64,000 nt of DNA from Kitasatospora sp. NBC_01266 (GTDB lineage Bacteria; Actinomycetota; Actinomycetes; Streptomycetales; Streptomycetaceae): the NCBI RefSeq assembly GCF_036242395.1, contig NZ_CP108458.1, positions 8,308,001-8,372,000 on the forward strand, given 5' to 3'. The translations under genes were made by a program, and so were the position numbers. Numbering within the stretch: position 1 is the first letter of the stretch; each line of letters begins with the position of its first letter. Positions 11,596 to 40,273 of this stretch are shown in pieces. The notes under the pieces are model-generated. The model was not told the DNA's origin. It searched no databases and was given only the letters and a program-made list of their open reading frames with translations.

Positions 11596-11970
11596 TCAGA
11601 CTTCCAGGTCGGCCTCGATCTTGGCGAGCTGGTGCCGCGCCATCGCCAGGTTGGCGCGGCGCTTGTCGAGCGCGAGGTAGAGGAAGAGGCCCTTGCCGCT
11701 GCGGCTGGTCAGCGGCCGGATCAGGTGGTACTGGCTGCTCAGCGAGATCAGGATGTCCTCGATCGCGTCGTTGAGCCCCAGCATCTCCATGGTGCGGAAC
11801 TTGGCCCGCACCACGTCGGTGTTGCCGGCCGCCGCCACCGTCAGGTCCAGGCCGCCGCCGCCGTCCACGGTCCCGAGCGCCATTCCGCTGCTGTAGTCGA
11901 CCAGGGCGGCGCCGATGGCGCCCTCGATGTTAGCGATCGCCTGTCGGAGCGAGTTGTCGGCGTCTGCCAT
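11596..11970 (-). CDS. Roadblock/LC7-like domain protein (last gene of the cluster)
   Basis: This 124-residue single-domain protein has the roadblock fold pattern: an N-terminal helix, DYSSGMALGTVDGGG, and the long strand ISLSSQYHLIRPLTSRSGKGLFLYLALD. Bacterial roadblock proteins, as in MglB or the conservon CvnB proteins, dimerise and regulate small Ras-like GTPases. Here no GTPase is adjacent. It is the last gene of a minus-strand run (14013 to 11596) with two other roadblock proteins and one DUF4388-like/winged-helix protein. Confidence 0.85.
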   Translation of the reverse strand: MADADNSLRQAIANIEGAIGAALVDYSSGMALGTVDGGGGLDLTVAAAGNTDVVRAKFRTMEMLGLNDAIEDILISLSSQYHLIRPLTSRSGKGLFLYLALDKRRANLAMARHQLAKIEADLEV

Positions 11971-12035
11971 GGTGATCTCCTGAAGGGGTGTTGAGTGGGT
12001 GAGTTGGTCGGGAAGAGGAGGACGGGGAAACCGGG

Positions 12036-12470
12036 TCAGCCGGCAGGGGGGTGCGGCTCGCCGCCGTGCAGCACCTCGCTCAGCCGCTGGGCCGAGCGGC
12101 GTGCCTCCAGGTGCAGGCGGCCGATGCTCACATCGGGGTGCGAGAGCAGGGTCAGCACGCAGCCCGGCCCCGCCGCGTAGGTCGCGATGTAGCCGTGCTC
12201 GCCGCGGAACAGCGACTCGCGGAAGCCGCCCTGGCCGGTCGTGTCGGAGAGCCGCTGGGCCACCCCGAGCGCGGTCGCGGTCAGTGCGGCCAGGCTCTCG
12301 GGGTCGGTGCCGTGGGTGTCGTGGGCGAGCAGCAGGCCGTTCACGCCGGCCACCAGGCCGCCCGCCAGGTGCGGCACGCGCTGGCGCAGCACGCGCAGCT
12401 CGGCGAGCAGGGTGCTCTCCAGGAGCGCGAGTTGGTGCCGGTCGGGCCGCGGCTTCAGCATCCGCCTCAT
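12036..12470 (-). CDS. Roadblock/LC7-like domain protein with N-terminal helix
   Basis: This 144-residue protein has an extra N-terminal helix (RHQLALLESTLLAELRVLRQRVPHL) before the roadblock strands VNGLLLAHDTHGTDPESLAALT and FRGEHGYIATYAAGPGCVLTLL. It should dimerise through this fold. The gene sits 65 bp upstream of the third roadblock gene and 34 bp after the DUF4388-like gene, so the four genes probably form one operon. Its sequence differs from the other two roadblock proteins, so they are not recent copies. Confidence 0.8.
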   Translation of the reverse strand: MRRMLKPRPDRHQLALLESTLLAELRVLRQRVPHLAGGLVAGVNGLLLAHDTHGTDPESLAALTATALGVAQRLSDTTGQGGFRESLFRGEHGYIATYAAGPGCVLTLLSHPDVSIGRLHLEARRSAQRLSEVLHGGEPHPPAG

Positions 12471-12504
12471 GACCGGGTGTGCGGGGCAGCGGGCGGGGCG
12501 AGGG

Positions 12505-13482
12505 TCATGGTCGGGCCTCCAGTGCGGTGCGGACGCGGATCAGCAGGGCGATGTCCGGTTCGGTGGGTGCGGAGCGCGGCGGCGGGGTTCGCGCGGTGGC
12601 GTGCCGCAGGGTGGCGCCCGGGACCCGGCGGACCGGCGCGTCGCGGGGGAGCGGTACGAGCAGCGCGGCCGGTACCGGAGCTTCAACTGGTGCGGCCAGT
12701 AGGGGCGGTGGGGCCGGTGCGCGCAGCGCGGCCGGTGCAGTCGGTGTGGCCGGTGCGCTTGGTCCGGGCGATGCGGCTGGCGCGGGTGGTGGTGCGACCG
12801 GCTCGGCGGTCGGCGTCGCGATCAGGCCGGCTGCCGCCAGCTGTCGGACCTCGACGATCGTGGCGTAGGTGGAACGCCCCAGCAGCCGGGCCAGTTGGGC
12901 GGGCGTGCGGCGGCCGTCGGCGAGGCCGAGCAGCTCGCGCCGTCGCGGGCTGGGGGCGAGGGCACGGTGCGCAGCTCCGGCGCGGCGGACGGGGGCGGTG
13001 TCCACCTGGGGCCAGGGCCAGATCCGCTCCAGCCGGTCCCGGCGGCGCACCGCCTCGCGCCGCAGCAGTCTCGGGTCCACCTCGTTGACCGGGCCCAGCC
13101 AGTGCCGCACTCCGGGTTCGAAGCGGGTGGTCAGCGAGCGCGGACCGAGGGCGAAGTACGCGGCGTCGTGCAGGGCCGCGAGGTGGCACACCTCCAACTC
13201 GCCCTGGGTGAGCGAGCCCTGGGCGACGAGCATGTGGCCCACCAGGCAGTGCTCGGCGAACCGGTCCAGGGCGTGCCGCCAGCAGTTCGGCGCGACCCGG
13301 CCGCAGCGGGTCAGCAGGGTGCCGAGGTCGAGGGAGTGCGGGCTGTCCGCGTGGACGACGGCGCCGTGGTCCAGGTAGAGGGTGCCGGTCTCGGTGTGCA
13401 GGGCCCCGGTGGCCCGCCCGTCGGCCAGTTGCTCGATGGCCGGGCCGGGTGGCTGCCAGTGGCGTGCTTGTGGTGTGCTCAC
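12505..13482 (-). CDS. DUF4388-like (PATAN) domain plus winged-helix protein
   Basis: This 325-residue protein has three parts. Residues 15-50 (ADGRATGALHTETGTLYLDHGAVVHAD) match the start of DUF4388/PATAN domains, used as adaptors in bacterial signalling. Residues about 180-225 (RRELLGLADGRRTPAQLARLLGRSTYATIVEVRQLAAAGLI) resemble a winged helix. The last 100 residues are Pro/Ala-rich and probably disordered. It lies among roadblock genes, so a role linking a roadblock complex to gene control is plausible but unproven. Confidence 0.7.
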   Translation of the reverse strand: MSTPQARHWQPPGPAIEQLADGRATGALHTETGTLYLDHGAVVHADSPHSLDLGTLLTRCGRVAPNCWRHALDRFAEHCLVGHMLVAQGSLTQGELEVCHLAALHDAAYFALGPRSLTTRFEPGVRHWLGPVNEVDPRLLRREAVRRRDRLERIWPWPQVDTAPVRRAGAAHRALAPSPRRRELLGLADGRRTPAQLARLLGRSTYATIVEVRQLAAAGLIATPTAEPVAPPPAPAASPGPSAPATPTAPAALRAPAPPPLLAAPVEAPVPAALLVPLPRDAPVRRVPGATLRHATARTPPPRSAPTEPDIALLIRVRTALEARP

Positions 13483-13590
13483 ATCCTCAGCTCCCGTGCG
13501 TGGGGGAAGAATCGGCGGCTGCGTCTGGCGCCGCCCGACCGCCCGGTGGTGCGGCTGCCCGGGCGCGCGGCTCGGGTGGCAGGCGGCGGG

Positions 13591-14013
13591 TCAGCCGAGC
13601 ACCAGCTCCTCCGCGAGCGCCTGCAGGCGCAGCCGGGCACCTGCCAGATTGGCCACCTCGCGGTCGAGCCACAGGTGCAGCAGCAGTCTGCTGTCGAAGA
13701 CCGTGCCGATCAGCCGGAACAGGTGGTAGCTGCGCTCGGTGGTGAGGATCAGGTCCTGCAACGGCAGTCGTGGATCGCTGGGTTCGGCGAAGCTGAGGCT
13801 CTCGGCGGCCAGTCTGACCAGGTCGGTGGCCTCGGCGGCGGTCGCCTCGTGGTCATCGGCCGGGCTGTCTCCCGCCGTGCCCAGGGCCAGACCGCTGCCC
13901 CAGTCGAGCAGGCCCGCGCCGCGCGCGCCGGCGATTCGCATCGCCGCCGACAGGCAGTCCTCGATCCCCGGCACCTGGGCTCCTTCGGGATGGTAGAAGT
14001 CGCGGGAGTTCAC
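13591..14013 (-). CDS. Roadblock/LC7-like domain protein (first gene of the cluster)
   Basis: This 140-residue protein has the roadblock pattern: IEDCLSAAMRIAGARGAGLLDWGSGLALG, a helix, then LILTTERSYHLFRLIG and LLLHLWLDREVANLAGARLRLQAL. The last helix resembles the C-terminus of the protein at 11596 (KRRANLAMARHQLAKIEADLEV), so they may be distant relatives or partners. It is the first gene of the minus-strand run; no histidine-kinase or GTPase gene of a classical conservon is present nearby. Confidence 0.8.
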   Translation of the reverse strand: MNSRDFYHPEGAQVPGIEDCLSAAMRIAGARGAGLLDWGSGLALGTAGDSPADDHEATAAEATDLVRLAAESLSFAEPSDPRLPLQDLILTTERSYHLFRLIGTVFDSRLLLHLWLDREVANLAGARLRLQALAEELVLG

Positions 14014-14421
14014 GGCTCGGCGACCGCCGTCCGGCTCATGGACGGCGGCCGAGCCGCATGGGTAGGCCGAGTTGGACGGGGTCGGCCGCGCCGCATGGGG
14101 CCGACCGCCACGACGTGTCGCTCAGCTGCCACGGAAGGTTACTGAGTGCAGCGTGCCGTATGACAATGCCGTTGGCATATTTACTACCTCAGCGAAGCTT
14201 TTCGGCCAACCGTGGCGCACTTCCGACGGCCGACCGCAGGGCTCGGGCTTCGGCGGTTGCACTGCCGGGCGCCGACGCGAACTCGGCCACCAGCACCGGG
14301 TGGTTGGCTGATTCCGCGTTCCTCGAACGGTGCGGGCGCCCTGGTCGGCCGGATCTCTGGGATGCTCCGGGGCAGCGTTTTTCGAAACGGCTGCTCCGGC
14401 GCGCCCGCACCGCTGGGCGGG
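14014..14421. other. Intergenic stretch upstream of the roadblock operon
   Basis: No gene is supported here. It should carry the promoter for the minus-strand roadblock run. A small dyad ATGCC-GTT-GGCAT lies near 14166-14178, just outside a weak minus-strand TTGTCA box (14160-14165), and could be an operator, but this is weak evidence. Confidence 0.35.
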
Positions 14422-16692: not shown

Positions 16693-16866
16693 CGCCCTTT
16701 CGGATCAACATGAGGCCATCCTGCCACGGCTGGGCACTTGCATGCACTGGCGATATGCCAGCCGCAGCAGGGGTTCTTCTTCCTACTGTCCGGTTCTCGC
16801 GCAGCTCCTGGGGAACGTCGCAAAGTGTTACTGGAGAAGGATCATCTTGCGGAGTAGTTCGAATCC

Positions 16867-17486
16867 AGCGCGGCCGTAGATCTCCACGCCTGGGTGACGG
16901 ACCAGCCACGCAGCCAGCGGCCCGGCCCCACGCGTCGGGAGCACATCGACCACACGATGGTCTTCGACGCTGGTCAAGACGGTGGAGTAGGTCTGGCCGC
17001 GACGGATCGCCAAATCGTCCACGCCCAGCACACGCGGCGTGCTGAACGCGGGATCGGGCAATGCCATGACCCTGCGCAGCAAGGTCATCCTTCCCGCGCC
17101 GAAGCCCAGCTGGGCTGCCAGCCGGGCGCCGGCCCGACCGGCCAGCGCGAGCCCCACCCGCTCCAGGGCATGGTTGAGCCGAGTGGTGAACCGTGCGTAC
17201 GGGGCAGACAGTCGCGAGAACCGCTCAGCAAACGTCCGACGCGGACAGTCCGCCGTCCCACAGATGAAACGCCGGACCACCAACCGAATCACGAAGCCCT
17301 GCTCAGCGAGCGGAAGATCCTTCGGCCTGCGGAGATAGCGGTCGTGCACCCGGTCCGAGAAGCGGCCACAGTCCGGACACTCCTCGCCGGCCACCCGGCC
17401 ACCCGGCCCCGCGCCACCGCCTCGACCTCCACGTCGTCGATCCCGTCGAACACGAGTGAGTCCCAGGACGATGCGTTGGTCTGCAT
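16867..17486 (-). pseudogene. ISL3-family transposase, N-terminal remnant
   Basis: The N-terminus reads SSWDSLVFDGIDDVEVEAVARGRV in one frame (start about 17486) and then continues in another with the zinc-finger region CPDCGRFSDRVHDRY, CGTADCPRRTFAERF and the start of the DDE domain PRVLGVDDLAIRRGQTYSTVL. A frameshift near 17400 and loss of everything after HPGVEIYGRAG make it dead. The matching C-terminal half of an ISL3 transposase lies at 20257-20740, but in the wrong order for a simple split, so local rearrangement or two separate elements are implied. Confidence 0.75.
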
Positions 17487-17755
17487 GACCGACACGATCA
17501 CCGCCCACGGCCGACGATGGCAGGGGTCCATCAGGGAGTTGATGGGGCGTCACCTTCGGCTGCCGGGCAGCCGGGCGTACGCGGTCTCACGCGACACAGC
17601 CCCTCACAATCGAACACCAAGGTGACGCTCCGCGACCGCTCCCAAGATCTCTGCCAGAACCGCTCCCTGGCAGCTTTTGTCGGCGGGTTTCGGCATCAGG
17701 AGGAGCCTGGAGCAGGTGAAATGTCGGCGAGAAGTAGCAGCACCGCGCGGCGGCC

Positions 17756-35264: not shown

Positions 35265-35352
35265 TGAAGTTCCCCCGTTGATCTGGACAGCTTGATACTG
35301 GGACGGTTGAGTCCCGGAGGAAGCAGTCCAGGTAGTGCGTGGCAAGAGCAAC

Positions 35353-35643
35353 ATGAGCAAGCGGTACACGGCGGAGTTCAAGCGGGACGCGATCGCGCTC
35401 GTCCGGTCCTCGCCCCATCGGAACGTCACCGATATCGCCCGGGAGCTGGGCGTGAGTCCGGAGGGGCTTCGCGGCTGGGTGAAACAGGCGAAGGTCGACC
35501 GCGGCGAGGGGGCGCCAGGCGCGCTGACGACGGCGGAGAAGGACGAGCTCCAGCGGCTGCGCAGGGAGAACCGGGAACAGCAGCAGACGATCGAGATCTT
35601 GAAAAAAGCCGCGGCCTTCTTCGCGAAGGAGACGATGAAGTAG
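35353..35643 (+). CDS. IS3-family OrfA
   Basis: This 96-residue protein has the IS3 OrfA helix-turn-helix (YTAEFKRDAIALVRSS, VTDIARELGVSPEGLRGWVKQAK) and a leucine-zipper-like coiled coil (LQRLRRENREQQQTIEILKKAAAFFAKE). Near its end the run AAAAAAG at 35602-35608 is a classical slippery site, so OrfA should shift by -1 into OrfB to make the OrfAB transposase. Confidence 0.88.
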   Translation: MSKRYTAEFKRDAIALVRSSPHRNVTDIARELGVSPEGLRGWVKQAKVDRGEGAPGALTTAEKDELQRLRRENREQQQTIEILKKAAAFFAKETMK

Positions 35644-36551
35644 GCACGTTGTGCCGCTTCATCGACGCGGAGAGGGCTGCCGAGGACAGACCTGACGGCT
35701 TCAGTGTCGCGCTGTTGTGCCGGGTTCTGAAGCTCCCGCGCACCAGCTACTACGCCTGGCTCGCCAGTCGGCCGGCCGCCGCCGAGCGGCAGCGGGCAGA
35801 AGACGAACTGGCCCAGGAGATAAGGGAGATCCACGCCTCCTCGCGCGGAGCCTACGGCGTCCCGCGCGTGCACGCCGCACTGCGGCGGACGGGCCGTGCG
35901 ATCAACCGGAAGAAGGTCGAGCGGATCATGCGCGAGCGCGACATCCGGGGTATCATCCGCCGCAGGCGCCGCCACCTGACGAAACAGGACACCAAGGCCG
36001 CCCCGGCCCCCGACCTGATCGGCCGCGACTTCACCGCGAAGCGGCCCGGTACGAAGCTCGTCGGCGACATCACATATCTGCCCACGATCGAGGGCTGGTG
36101 GTATCTGGCCACGGTCATCGACCTGGCGACCCGCGAGGTGATCGGGTACGCGATGGCCGACCACCACCGCGCCGAACTGGTCACCGACGCCCTGAAAATG
36201 GCCGCCGGCCGGGGCGGCCTGAAGCCGGGCTGCATCATGCACACCGACCGCGGCAGCGAGTATACGAGTAGCGAATTCCGCCAGGAGATAAGGAAGTTGA
36301 ACCTGAGACAGAGTATGGGGCGAACCGGCATATGTTACGATAACGCCGCAGCCGAGAGCTTCTTCGGCTTGCTGAAAGCGGAGATCGGCACCACCGTCTG
36401 GGACAGCCGGGAAGCGGCCCGAGCCGACGTCTTCCGCTTCATCGAAGTCGAATACAACCGCACCAGGCTCCGCAGGCACCCCGAGTTCGGGTACCTCACC
36501 CCACTCGAAACCCGAGCCAGGCTGCAGCACGACTTCACCCCCGCAGCGTAA
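35604..36551 (+). CDS. IS3-family OrfB (catalytic part, made by -1 frameshift)
   Basis: OrfB lies in the -1 frame of OrfA and lacks a strong own start; it is entered at the AAAAAAG slip site. It contains the HTH_21 region YYAWLASRPAAAERQRAEDEL and GAYGVPRVHAALRR, then the rve integrase core with catalytic residues Asp in GDITYLPT, Asp in HTDRGSEYTS and Glu in DNAAAESFFGLLK. It reads through to TAA at 36549-36551. The gene set looks intact and the element may be mobile. Confidence 0.88.
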   Translation, partial: KSRGLLREGDDEVGTLCRFIDAERAAEDRPDGFSVALLCRVLKLPRTSYYAWLASRPAAAERQRAEDELAQEIREIHASSRGAYGVPRVHAALRRTGRAINRKKVERIMRERDIRGIIRRRRRHLTKQDTKAAPAPDLIGRDFTAKRPGTKLVGDITYLPTIEGWWYLATVIDLATREVIGYAMADHHRAELVTDALKMAAGRGGLKPGCIMHTDRGSEYTSSEFRQEIRKLNLRQSMGRTGICYDNAAAESFFGLLKAEIGTTVWDSREAARADVFRFIEVEYNRTRLRRHPEFGYLTPLETRARLQHDFTPAA

Positions 36552-39017: not shown

Positions 39018-39458
39018 CTACGGTCGCGGCAGGGCGAACAGGCCCGGTTCGGGCTCTGCCAGGATGTTGCGCCCGGTCAGGCGCTTGAGCTTCAAACGGA
39101 CGTTGTTGATGTTGTTCGGAGCCGGGTCCAGGTCCATCGCCTCGCACACGCCCCGCGCGCGCAGCGGACCGTCTGCCTGGGCGAACACCACCATGATTTC
39201 CTGGTAGGCCGCCCCGTCCGGCACCTGCGGGGCGGACGCCGACGGCGCGGGCGGGTCCGGGTCGGGCAGCCCCAGCAGCGTCTTGCGGGTGATCCGCACT
39301 TCCTCGGCGGCCCGATCGAGCTCGTCCAGCACGGCGATGAGCCGCGTGATCTGCTCGCGGGTCTCTTCGGCCTGCGCGGCGATCTCTCGCTCGCGCTTCT
39401 CCAGACGCACCAGCACCGCCCCCAGGGTCAGGTCCCCGCTGGTCACGCGCCGCGCCAT
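39018..39458 (-). CDS. IS-associated coiled-coil/winged-helix accessory protein (second example)
   Basis: This 146-residue protein has a long N-terminal coiled coil (GAVLVRLEKREREIAAQAEETREQITRLIAVLDELDRAAEEVR) and a C-terminal winged-helix region (YQEIMVVFAQADGPLRARGVCEAMDLDPAPNNINNVRLKLKRLTGRNIL). It overlaps the 3' end of the transposase gene at 39443 by 16 bp and so is probably translationally coupled to it. The layout equals the accessory gene at 33604, but here it follows the transposase. Some members of this family use it as a bound regulator; that is an inference. Confidence 0.65.
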   Translation of the reverse strand: MARRVTSGDLTLGAVLVRLEKREREIAAQAEETREQITRLIAVLDELDRAAEEVRITRKTLLGLPDPDPPAPSASAPQVPDGAAYQEIMVVFAQADGPLRARGVCEAMDLDPAPNNINNVRLKLKRLTGRNILAEPEPGLFALPRP

Positions 39459-40273
39459 GACATCGCGCCGCCGGTCAGCCGACGGGTCATCACGTCGCTT
39501 ATCGCCCAGTAGACCCGGGACTCGGCCGAGGCGGGGCGGTGCTCGTAGTCACGTACCAGTCGCCGGTGCAGCATCAAGATCCCGTTCGTCTGCTCCACCC
39601 GCCACCGGATCGGCTGCGGGACGAACCCGGTCTCGGCAGGGTTGCGTTCGACGATTTCGACGTCGATGCCCACCTGCTTGCCGTGGTCCACAACGGTCTT
39701 CTTGAACCCCTGGTCCACCAGGGCCTTCGTCACGGTGTCGCCACTGGCTACTGCGACCTTGTCGAGCAGGGCGGTGCCGAAGGCGTTGTCGTGGACGGAG
39801 GCGGCCAGCACGACCACGGCGATCACCAGGCCCAGCACGTCCACGGCAAGGCCCCGCTTGCGGCCGGGCACCTTCTTCGCCACGTCGCGTCCCGTCGTCT
39901 TGGCCGGCACCCCGGCCGCCGCGTGCAGGCTCTGGGTGTCGAGCACCACCAGGCTGGGGTCGGCTAATCGGCCCCTCTTCTCGCGGACCTGCCAGCGCAG
40001 CAGGTCATGAATGACCTGGTCGGTGCCGTCATTGCGCCACGTGTAGAAGTAGTACTTCACCGCGCCGGCGGGTGGCAGGTCGTGCGGGAGGTAGTCCCAC
40101 TGGCAGCCGGTCCGGGACTGGTAGAGCAGCGCGTTGACGATCTCCCGCATCTCGTAGCGGCCTTCGTGGCCGCTGACCGAGGGATGCTGGACCTTCCACG
40201 AGGTGATCACCGGCTCGATCAGCGCCCAGCGTTCGTCGGACAAGTCGCTCTTGTAGGGCTTGCGGTCGCTCAC
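39443..40273 (-). CDS. IS5-family transposase
   Basis: This 276-residue protein has the DUF4096/IS5 start YKSDLSDERWALIEPVITSW and GCQWDYLPHDLPPAGAVKYYFYTWRNDGT, then LVVLDTQSLHAAAG (first Asp), KRGLAVDVLGLVIAVVVLAA, ALVDQGFKKTVVDHG (second Asp) and RWRVEQTNGILMLHRRLVRDYE with the last Glu. It reads intact. Clear terminal inverted repeats were not found around it, so the element's borders remain open. Confidence 0.87.
   Translation of the reverse strand: MSDRKPYKSDLSDERWALIEPVITSWKVQHPSVSGHEGRYEMREIVNALLYQSRTGCQWDYLPHDLPPAGAVKYYFYTWRNDGTDQVIHDLLRWQVREKRGRLADPSLVVLDTQSLHAAAGVPAKTTGRDVAKKVPGRKRGLAVDVLGLVIAVVVLAASVHDNAFGTALLDKVAVASGDTVTKALVDQGFKKTVVDHGKQVGIDVEIVERNPAETGFVPQPIRWRVEQTNGILMLHRRLVRDYEHRPASAESRVYWAISDVMTRRLTGGAMSWRGA

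Follow-up and report, generated by a model that had tools for sequence, protein, structure and literature searches.

A conserved four-gene roadblock/LC7 operon with a PATAN-winged-helix protein and no GTPase gene of its own in Kitasatospora and its relatives

The stretch of DNA analysed here (the window) comprises 64,000 nucleotides of Kitasatospora sp. NBC_01266 (contig NZ_CP108458.1, positions 8,308,001 to 8,372,000). At its positions 11,596 to 14,013, four genes were named rbA, wh, rbB, and rbC in the order of their transcription (Table 1). A first-pass annotation had described them as three roadblock/LC7 proteins with a DUF4388-like/winged-helix protein, and this description held up: rbB belongs to the roadblock/LC7 family by its Pfam match, rbC by its predicted fold, and rbA by way of its homology to rbC.

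Table 1 Features of the roadblock operon (positions are those of the window)
Feature	Position	Strand	Basis or remarks
rbA open reading frame (ORF)	14013-13591	minus	readable from 14013
rbA, putative divergent roadblock protein, 127 amino acids	13591..13974	minus	homology to rbC; sub-threshold Robl_LC7; start common to homologues
wh	13482-12505	minus	DUF4388/PATAN (~17-150), winged helix (~176-224), linker, C-terminal helix (309-322)
wh C-terminal tail codons (PDIALLIRVRTALEARP) and stop	12505..12558	minus	tail pattern; hhalign to CvnC tail
rbB, canonical Robl_LC7 (MglB/CvnB-like), 141 amino acids	12036..12461	minus	alternative ATG 12470
rbC, predicted divergent roadblock protein, 124 amino acids	11596..11970	minus	AlphaFold model; no Pfam/NCBIfam match
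Operator-like element ATATGCCAACGGCATTGTCATA	14159..14180	minus	ATGCC-N3-GGCAT palindrome, 184-206 bases upstream of rbA start

The only protein of the operon that passes Pfam as a roadblock protein is rbB, with 63.2 bits for Robl_LC7 at a cut-off of 23. It is homologous to the CvnB proteins of the host (hhalign E 5e-15), and the matches of its profile among PDB sequences include MglB, CvnB5, and Rv3364c. For rbC, no match was obtained in Pfam or NCBIfam, to CvnB by hhalign, or to PDB sequences by phmmer. An AlphaFold2 (AF2) model of rbC, made from an alignment of 29 sequences, has a predicted local distance difference test score (pLDDT) of 84.6 and the order H-EE-H-EEE-H. It resembles MglB of M. 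xanthus (Foldseek E 3e-7) and reached a VIA Z of 17.8 over 116 residues; the structures matched are MglB, MglC, Ragulator/LAMTOR, and roadblock proteins of S. avermitilis. The mean column identity of 78% in the 29 sequences reveals strong conservation. The Robl_LC7 score of rbA, 15.4 bits, lies below the Pfam cut-off, and it is solely through its homology to rbC (hhalign E 5e-29) that rbA may be assigned to the family; comparison with rbB by hhalign was not significant (E 0.061, probability 0.9%). The GTG at 13974, which is preceded by AAGGAG, is probably the true start of rbA (MPGIEDCL), as homologues have the same start.

The wh protein gave 24.9 bits for DUF4388 (PF14332) by hmmscan against Pfam, at a cut-off of 25, and 26.6 bits in a six-frame search, in which it was the sole match in the host genome at E <= 0.001. 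MarR_2 was matched with 18.1 bits (Pfam cut-off 27). The linker between the winged helix and the C-terminal helix is disordered and rich in Pro and Ala. The AF2 model has a pLDDT of 81, with residues 269-298 under 50; its best Foldseek match in PDB has an E of 0.74, while the wh profile matched PDB sequences of transcriptional regulators best (E 0.013), followed by PilB (E 0.15).

Uniqueness to this strain would have spoken against the first-pass annotation, but the order rbA-wh-rbB-rbC is kept in other actinobacteria. The wh gene was found in 23 of 24 genomes of the same genus besides the host, and in 29 of 41 genomes in all, the host included. At the 23 loci of the genus, all four genes occur in this same order. 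At one locus (L054, genome G006), the wh gene that lies between rbA and rbB/rbC is broken into two frames, as the result of either pseudogene formation or a sequencing error. A profile of rbC, which also catches rbA, matched 85 of the 99 genomes of the order, one of them with a best score of only 99 bits, and 18 loci taken nonrandomly from the top of the rbC match list comprised 16 full operons and 2 solo rbC genes. In a sample of 98 genomes of the class, wh is present in 39. A census of architectures, in which 112 loci were scanned with models, yielded 92 with a wh match. Of these, 53, the window included, have the order rbA-wh-rbB-rbC (type I), 10 have rbC divergent (type II), and 6 have wh-rbB (type III), with a further small protein adjoining rbB that looks roadblock-like by eye. 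Another 12 have the order roadblock-wh-GTPase, and 11 fit no architecture. Nine of the latter gave a wh match alone (L120 and L123 among these are DUF4388 proteins by Pfam), while L115 has wh with rbC and rbB divergent, and L125 has wh with a roadblock gene only. Two of the loci (L122 and L139) gave no match to any model. Carriers of type I include Kitasatospora sp. GAS204B, a plasmid of Streptomyces sp. NBC_00053, pSCAT of Streptantibioticus cattleyicolor, and a Nocardia farcinica record. The ratio of nonsynonymous to synonymous substitution rates (dN/dS) among the window, L001, and L032 was 0.045-0.065 for rbA, 0.09-0.16 for rbC, 0.20-0.28 for rbB, and 0.38-0.51 for wh, so all four genes are under purifying selection. 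Because the order recurs throughout the genus and all dN/dS values are below 1, the arrangement is not due to chance; the operon is real and widely conserved in Streptomyces and relatives.

In agreement with the first-pass annotation, the operon is not a conservon and contains no GTPase gene. With the host's own conservon proteins as probes, no homologues of CvnA, CvnC, or CvnD were found in the window by tblastn, and none of the four operon proteins matched PF05331 (DUF742). The operon thus lacks the CvnA-like kinase, the DUF742 protein, and the CvnD-type GTPase of a conservon. It does not hold an MglA-like GTPase paired with a roadblock gene, as MglA/MglB modules do, nor does it have the MglA and the receiver-like/winged helix-turn-helix (wHTH) protein of the Group 3 MglA systems, there being no MglA and the N-terminal domain of wh being PATAN-like. 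Nor was CvnA, CvnC, or CvnD matched at any position of the 69 loci of types I-III; a GTPase hidden nearby was thus ruled out both in the window and in these GTPase-less wh loci.

Eight Robl_LC7 matches occur in the host genome, seven of them in conservons with the order kinase-roadblock-CvnC-GTPase, the eighth being rbB. The conservon genes were named by order and sequence; DUF742 was confirmed by Pfam in L070, the one that was scanned. All seven host GTPases of the CvnD type (PF03029) sit inside these conservons, and rbB is the sole Robl_LC7 gene of the host without a GTPase neighbour. A spare MglA-like GTPase was sought in the host and rejected: beyond the seven conservon members found with PF03029, the Ras model PF00071 added just two matches, whose open frames span 1075 and 491 codons. 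At one place in the host genome (L069; G000:C1:5584000-5598000), two conservons stand in tandem; their roadblock and GTPase proteins look near-identical over the first 70 residues, and their kinases differ.

In other families of Actinomycetes, 12 loci carry a homologue of wh between a roadblock gene and a gene for a CvnD-like GTPase, and neither rbA nor rbC was found at these loci. The two GTPase-linked wh proteins that were scanned have a full DUF4388 (84 and 92 bits). By hhalign, the PATAN domain of type I wh aligns with that of the GTPase-linked proteins with an E of 8e-10, and the wHTH with an E of 3e-9. In a tree of wh, types I, II, and III are on one side of a branch and the GTPase-linked proteins on the other (support 100/99); in a tree of rbB, a single branch (97/97) unites types I-III and L115, and CvnB stands apart from it (100/98). 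The trees were drawn with midpoint rooting and without an outgroup, 23 loci, mostly close relatives of kept ones, having been left out by name; six long DUF4388 proteins were added, and the wh domains were cut at 250 residues.

Six of the 12 GTPase-linked loci (L119, L121, L131, L132, L135, and L138) have genes for pilus ATPases of the PilB/PilT type downstream, within ~7 kb, and five of them also have pilC; PilB of L119 was identified by Pfam. No pilB, pilT, or pilC was found in the stretch examined around the other six, or by tblastn (E 1e-10) in the remaining 100 loci, which include the 69 GTPase-less wh loci. The cassette of roadblock, DUF4388/wHTH, and CvnD-like GTPase genes with pilus genes is a candidate for a pilus regulator of the MglA/MglB/PATAN type in Actinomycetes. 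Within the PATAN domain, the helical half (wh residues 50-106) resembles the MshEN domain of PilB/PilF, as seen in the N-termini of PilB of L119 and others (hhalign E 5.6e-5 and 1e-5; VIA Z 5.6 to PilF GSPIIB, 27% identity).

The C-terminal tail of wh conforms to a pattern of the type LL-x-R-h-x-x-A-h-E, used in a loose and a strict form, which was composed after inspection of the sequences. It is present (loose/strict) in 51/37 of the 54 type I wh rows, in 12/9 of the 12 GTPase-linked wh proteins, and in 3/3 of 8 CvnC proteins. It was absent from 1015 further genes at these loci (0/0) and from all wh rows of type II (10), type III (6), and the remaining group (11). The wHTH and tail of type I wh were also aligned to their counterparts in CvnC by an hhalign comparison that was not guided by the pattern (E 9e-5, probability 60%). 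A roadblock protein of the rbB type is the partner common to the tail-bearing sets, i.e., type I, the GTPase-linked wh proteins, and CvnC, and for this reason the tail of wh may bind such a roadblock. A precedent is the C-terminal helix of RomR, which binds the roadblock protein MglC with a dissociation constant of 2.6 nM (PMC12719032). In the linker, the motif RR[VIR]PG occurs in 19 of the 54 rows of type I but only 1 of the 10 of type II and 2 of the 6 of type III, against 10 of 1089 background genes. Motifs like RR-x-PG or LPRR in wh linkers (L062, L112, L170, and L116) recall the LPxR of the conservon kinases (CvnA, L069-L074), a weak likeness noted post hoc.

The median net charge of the wHTH is +4 both in type I (measured for 47 of the 54 rows) and in type II (10 rows), 1.5 in type III (6 rows, with two segments misplaced), and -1 in the GTPase-linked wh proteins (11 of 12). 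Upstream of rbA, the ATGCC-N3-GGCAT palindrome is perfect in the window. Of the 25 loci compared, namely the window, L001, and 23 from the genus, 24 share the sequence ATATGCC, and the 25th has TATGCC. Among the 28 other type I loci, ATATGCC occurs in one and the looser A[AT]ATGCCA, chosen post hoc and without a control, in 16. In the 8.57-Mb genome, the 22-base element has a single match when up to 3 mismatches are allowed (control 0). A promoter and terminator scan gave no sigma-70-like promoter and one terminator-like site, at 14355 on the opposite strand. The putative operator fits autoregulation, yet a regulator other than wh could use the site; for a possible DNA binding by wh, the wHTH charge and the unique palindrome are indirect signs only.

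Relatives of rbC extend beyond the operon. They were found by tblastn in 27 plasmid records, including those of Deinococcus, Hymenobacter, Comamonas, Diaphorobacter, Methylomagnum, Acinetobacter, and Agarilytica, while the 8 records with wh are all actinobacterial. Loci with rbC relatives (L160-L166 and L169) are from Deinococcus, Hymenobacter, Proteobacteria, and Tsukamurella, and no Pfam match was obtained for the members that were scanned. In Agarilytica rhodophyticola, the order is rbC, a gene for a BLUF photosensor protein, GTPase, and roadblock; in Acinetobacter, it is Robl_LC7, a gene for an unknown protein, and rbC, no adjoining GTPase being annotated in a gene table that is incomplete. 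Two solo rbC genes of the host, L140 (G000:C1:1945522) and L141 (G000:C1:4375508), have no adjoining roadblock or GTPase partners.

The reading favoured here, with a confidence somewhat short of even, is that the operon descends from, or is sister to, a switch of the MglB-PATAN-MglA type and, without a GTPase gene of its own, combines a roadblock platform with a tail-tethered wHTH. The platform would be formed by rbB, as an MglB-like homodimer, together with rbA and rbC, probably as a heterodimer. Precedents are the MglC:MglB 2:4 complex (PMC7949163) and the bipartite GAP (GTPase-activating protein) complex of MglB and RomY (PMC9481161). The helix that ends the long linker of wh might dock on this platform, by analogy with the C-terminal helix of RomR on MglC. 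The PATAN domain might sense a ligand or modification, and either this or the docking could then control the basic wHTH, which may act first at the palindromic putative operator of the operon itself, with rbA and rbC taking the place of the GTPase as the varying partner. Direct control of the winged-helix protein by hetero-oligomers of the three roadblock proteins had been put forward in the first-pass annotation, whose interpretation finds support in part: the gene content and the conserved order bear it out, and the hetero-oligomers and the control remain hypothetical. A bolder version is unlikely: signalling by roadblock proteins only, in which a three-roadblock scaffold would have replaced the Ras-like GTPase as the partner of the PATAN-wHTH switch and, as a Ragulator-like platform, would control a DNA-binding protein directly, rbC representing a widespread family for which Pfam has no model.

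Several observations weigh against the favoured reading. All 44 genomes checked, in which the operon is of type I (38), of type II (5), or rearranged (1), encode PF03029 GTPases, with 4-14 matches each; not one genome had the operon and lacked such a GTPase, so that the independence of the operon from GTPases is no more than presumed. The tail pattern is of post hoc origin, over the whole protein wh is only weakly linked to CvnC by hhalign (probability 6%), and docking through the tail cannot be general, since types II and III keep rbB without having the tail. The wHTH gave fold matches at noise level, the top ones being to GATOR1/KICSTOR chains (Z 8.3), which are winged helices of protein complexes, and in types II and III the 13-base palindrome did not exceed the level of shuffled sequences. 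The occurrence of rbC beside a GTPase in Agarilytica, and on its own at 8 of the 112 loci, including two host loci, means that it is not a simple GTPase replacement. Finally, a GTPase in the ancestor that was later lost is suggested by parsimony only, because the trees lack an outgroup and the rbB tree came with long-branch warnings.

The presence of GTPases in all these genomes is also what makes a partner in trans conceivable. According to this explanation, rbB, and perhaps rbA and rbC, would be the GAP, sink, or effector of one or more conservon GTPases, the operon being an accessory arm of the conservon network. The clear homology of rbB to CvnB and the resemblance of the wh tail and wHTH to CvnC agree with it, as do the report that MfpC, a CvnC homologue, is a likely guanine nucleotide exchange factor (PMC13343842) and the linkage of the Agarilytica rbC relative to a GTPase and a roadblock gene. 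Each of the seven CvnD-type GTPases of the host, however, adjoins a CvnB of its own, so that none is to spare, and the frames of the two additional Ras-model matches are long for a lone small GTPase. Moreover, the rbB branch is apart from CvnB, and co-occurrence says little because conservons are common in these genomes. We consider a GTPase in trans unlikely. The possibility, raised in the first-pass annotation, that a GTPase is encoded elsewhere in the same regulon could be checked in part: the confinement of the CvnD-type GTPases to conservons and the uniqueness of the operator-like element argue against it, while a trans-acting GTPase is compatible with the 44 genomes.

Less likely still is that wh is not a transcription factor and that the complex is a localisation platform, for instance at hyphal tips or septa, with PATAN and wHTH as protein-interaction modules, as they are in PATAN proteins around type IV pili. 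The pilus genes near half of the GTPase-linked homologues, the likeness of the PATAN helical half to MshEN of PilB, and the GATOR1/KICSTOR matches of the wHTH would suit such a role. They are countered by the absence of pilB, pilT, and pilC matches from all 69 GTPase-less wh loci, by the more basic wHTH of type I as compared with GTPase-linked wh, by the conserved and unique palindrome upstream of the operon, and by the label "transcriptional regulator" that PGAP gives to one relative, which is annotation only. A decaying conservon remnant that lost its kinase, DUF742, and GTPase genes is highly improbable. Although a clear resemblance to conservon parts is confined to the roadblock gene and such losses have been described for other orphans (Wuichet 2014; PMC4316618), this explanation was rejected, as it is contradicted by the recurrence of the gene order in 23 of the 24 genomes of the genus and also in other families, by the dN/dS values of 0.045-0.51, and by the trees, in which wh and rbB are on branches of their own.

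What is understood of roadblock proteins in bacteria mostly concerns their role as GAPs of, or scaffolds for, GTPases of the MglA type. As a widespread orphan with defined partners and a GTPase-bearing cousin, the operon makes a roadblock role without a GTPase testable in laboratory Streptomyces. In rbC, it has a cross-phylum roadblock family that is not recognised by Pfam and NCBIfam in the members scanned, and its lineage links PATAN, wHTH, and CvnC-like tails. A literature search gave no paper in which "roadblock" is paired with "DUF4388", and neither the four-gene operon nor the rbC family nor the GTPase-linked cassette turned up in the literature consulted, which is no proof of their absence from print. 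According to a pangenome study, a roadblock cluster without a definite function, which need not correspond to a gene of this operon, is kept in all 205 Streptomyces strains (PMC9640686). Elsewhere in the window, which is from the terminal part of the chromosome, transposase-like ORFs, judged by eye from their translations, are present at 35335-36551, 39443-40273, and 16828-17553.

Among known systems, the conservon CvnA-B-C-D is like the operon in having a roadblock protein akin to CvnB, a gene for a wHTH protein beside the roadblock gene, and, in some CvnC, a tail similar to that of wh; the operon differs in lacking kinase, DUF742, and GTPase genes, in its PATAN domain, in its two extra divergent roadblocks, and in the separate branch of rbB. 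The polarity module of Myxococcus, MglA-MglB with MglC, RomR, and RomY, also has several roadblock proteins, one of which is bound by the C-terminal helix of RomR, but RomR carries a receiver domain where wh has the wHTH, and the operon has no MglA and all its genes together. Group 3 MglA systems consist of a receiver-like/wHTH protein, MglA, and one or two MglB proteins, and a role in the regulation of transcription was proposed for them (Wuichet and Sogaard-Andersen 2014; PMC4316618). They have in common with the operon a wHTH protein with a variable linker and roadblock proteins; the operon is actinobacterial and has a PATAN instead of a receiver-like domain, no MglA, and three roadblocks. 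In the same paper, PATAN genes were noted near some MglA/MglB genes, and a small actinobacterial MglB clade was described as exclusively orphan, without flanking conservon genes; rbB fits this description. As stated there, no orphan MglB had been characterised experimentally by 2014. A further counterpart is the cassette of Robl, DUF4388/wHTH, and CvnD-like GTPase genes, the wh of which is homologous along PATAN, wHTH, and tail; this cassette has a GTPase and a full-strength DUF4388 and does without rbA and rbC.

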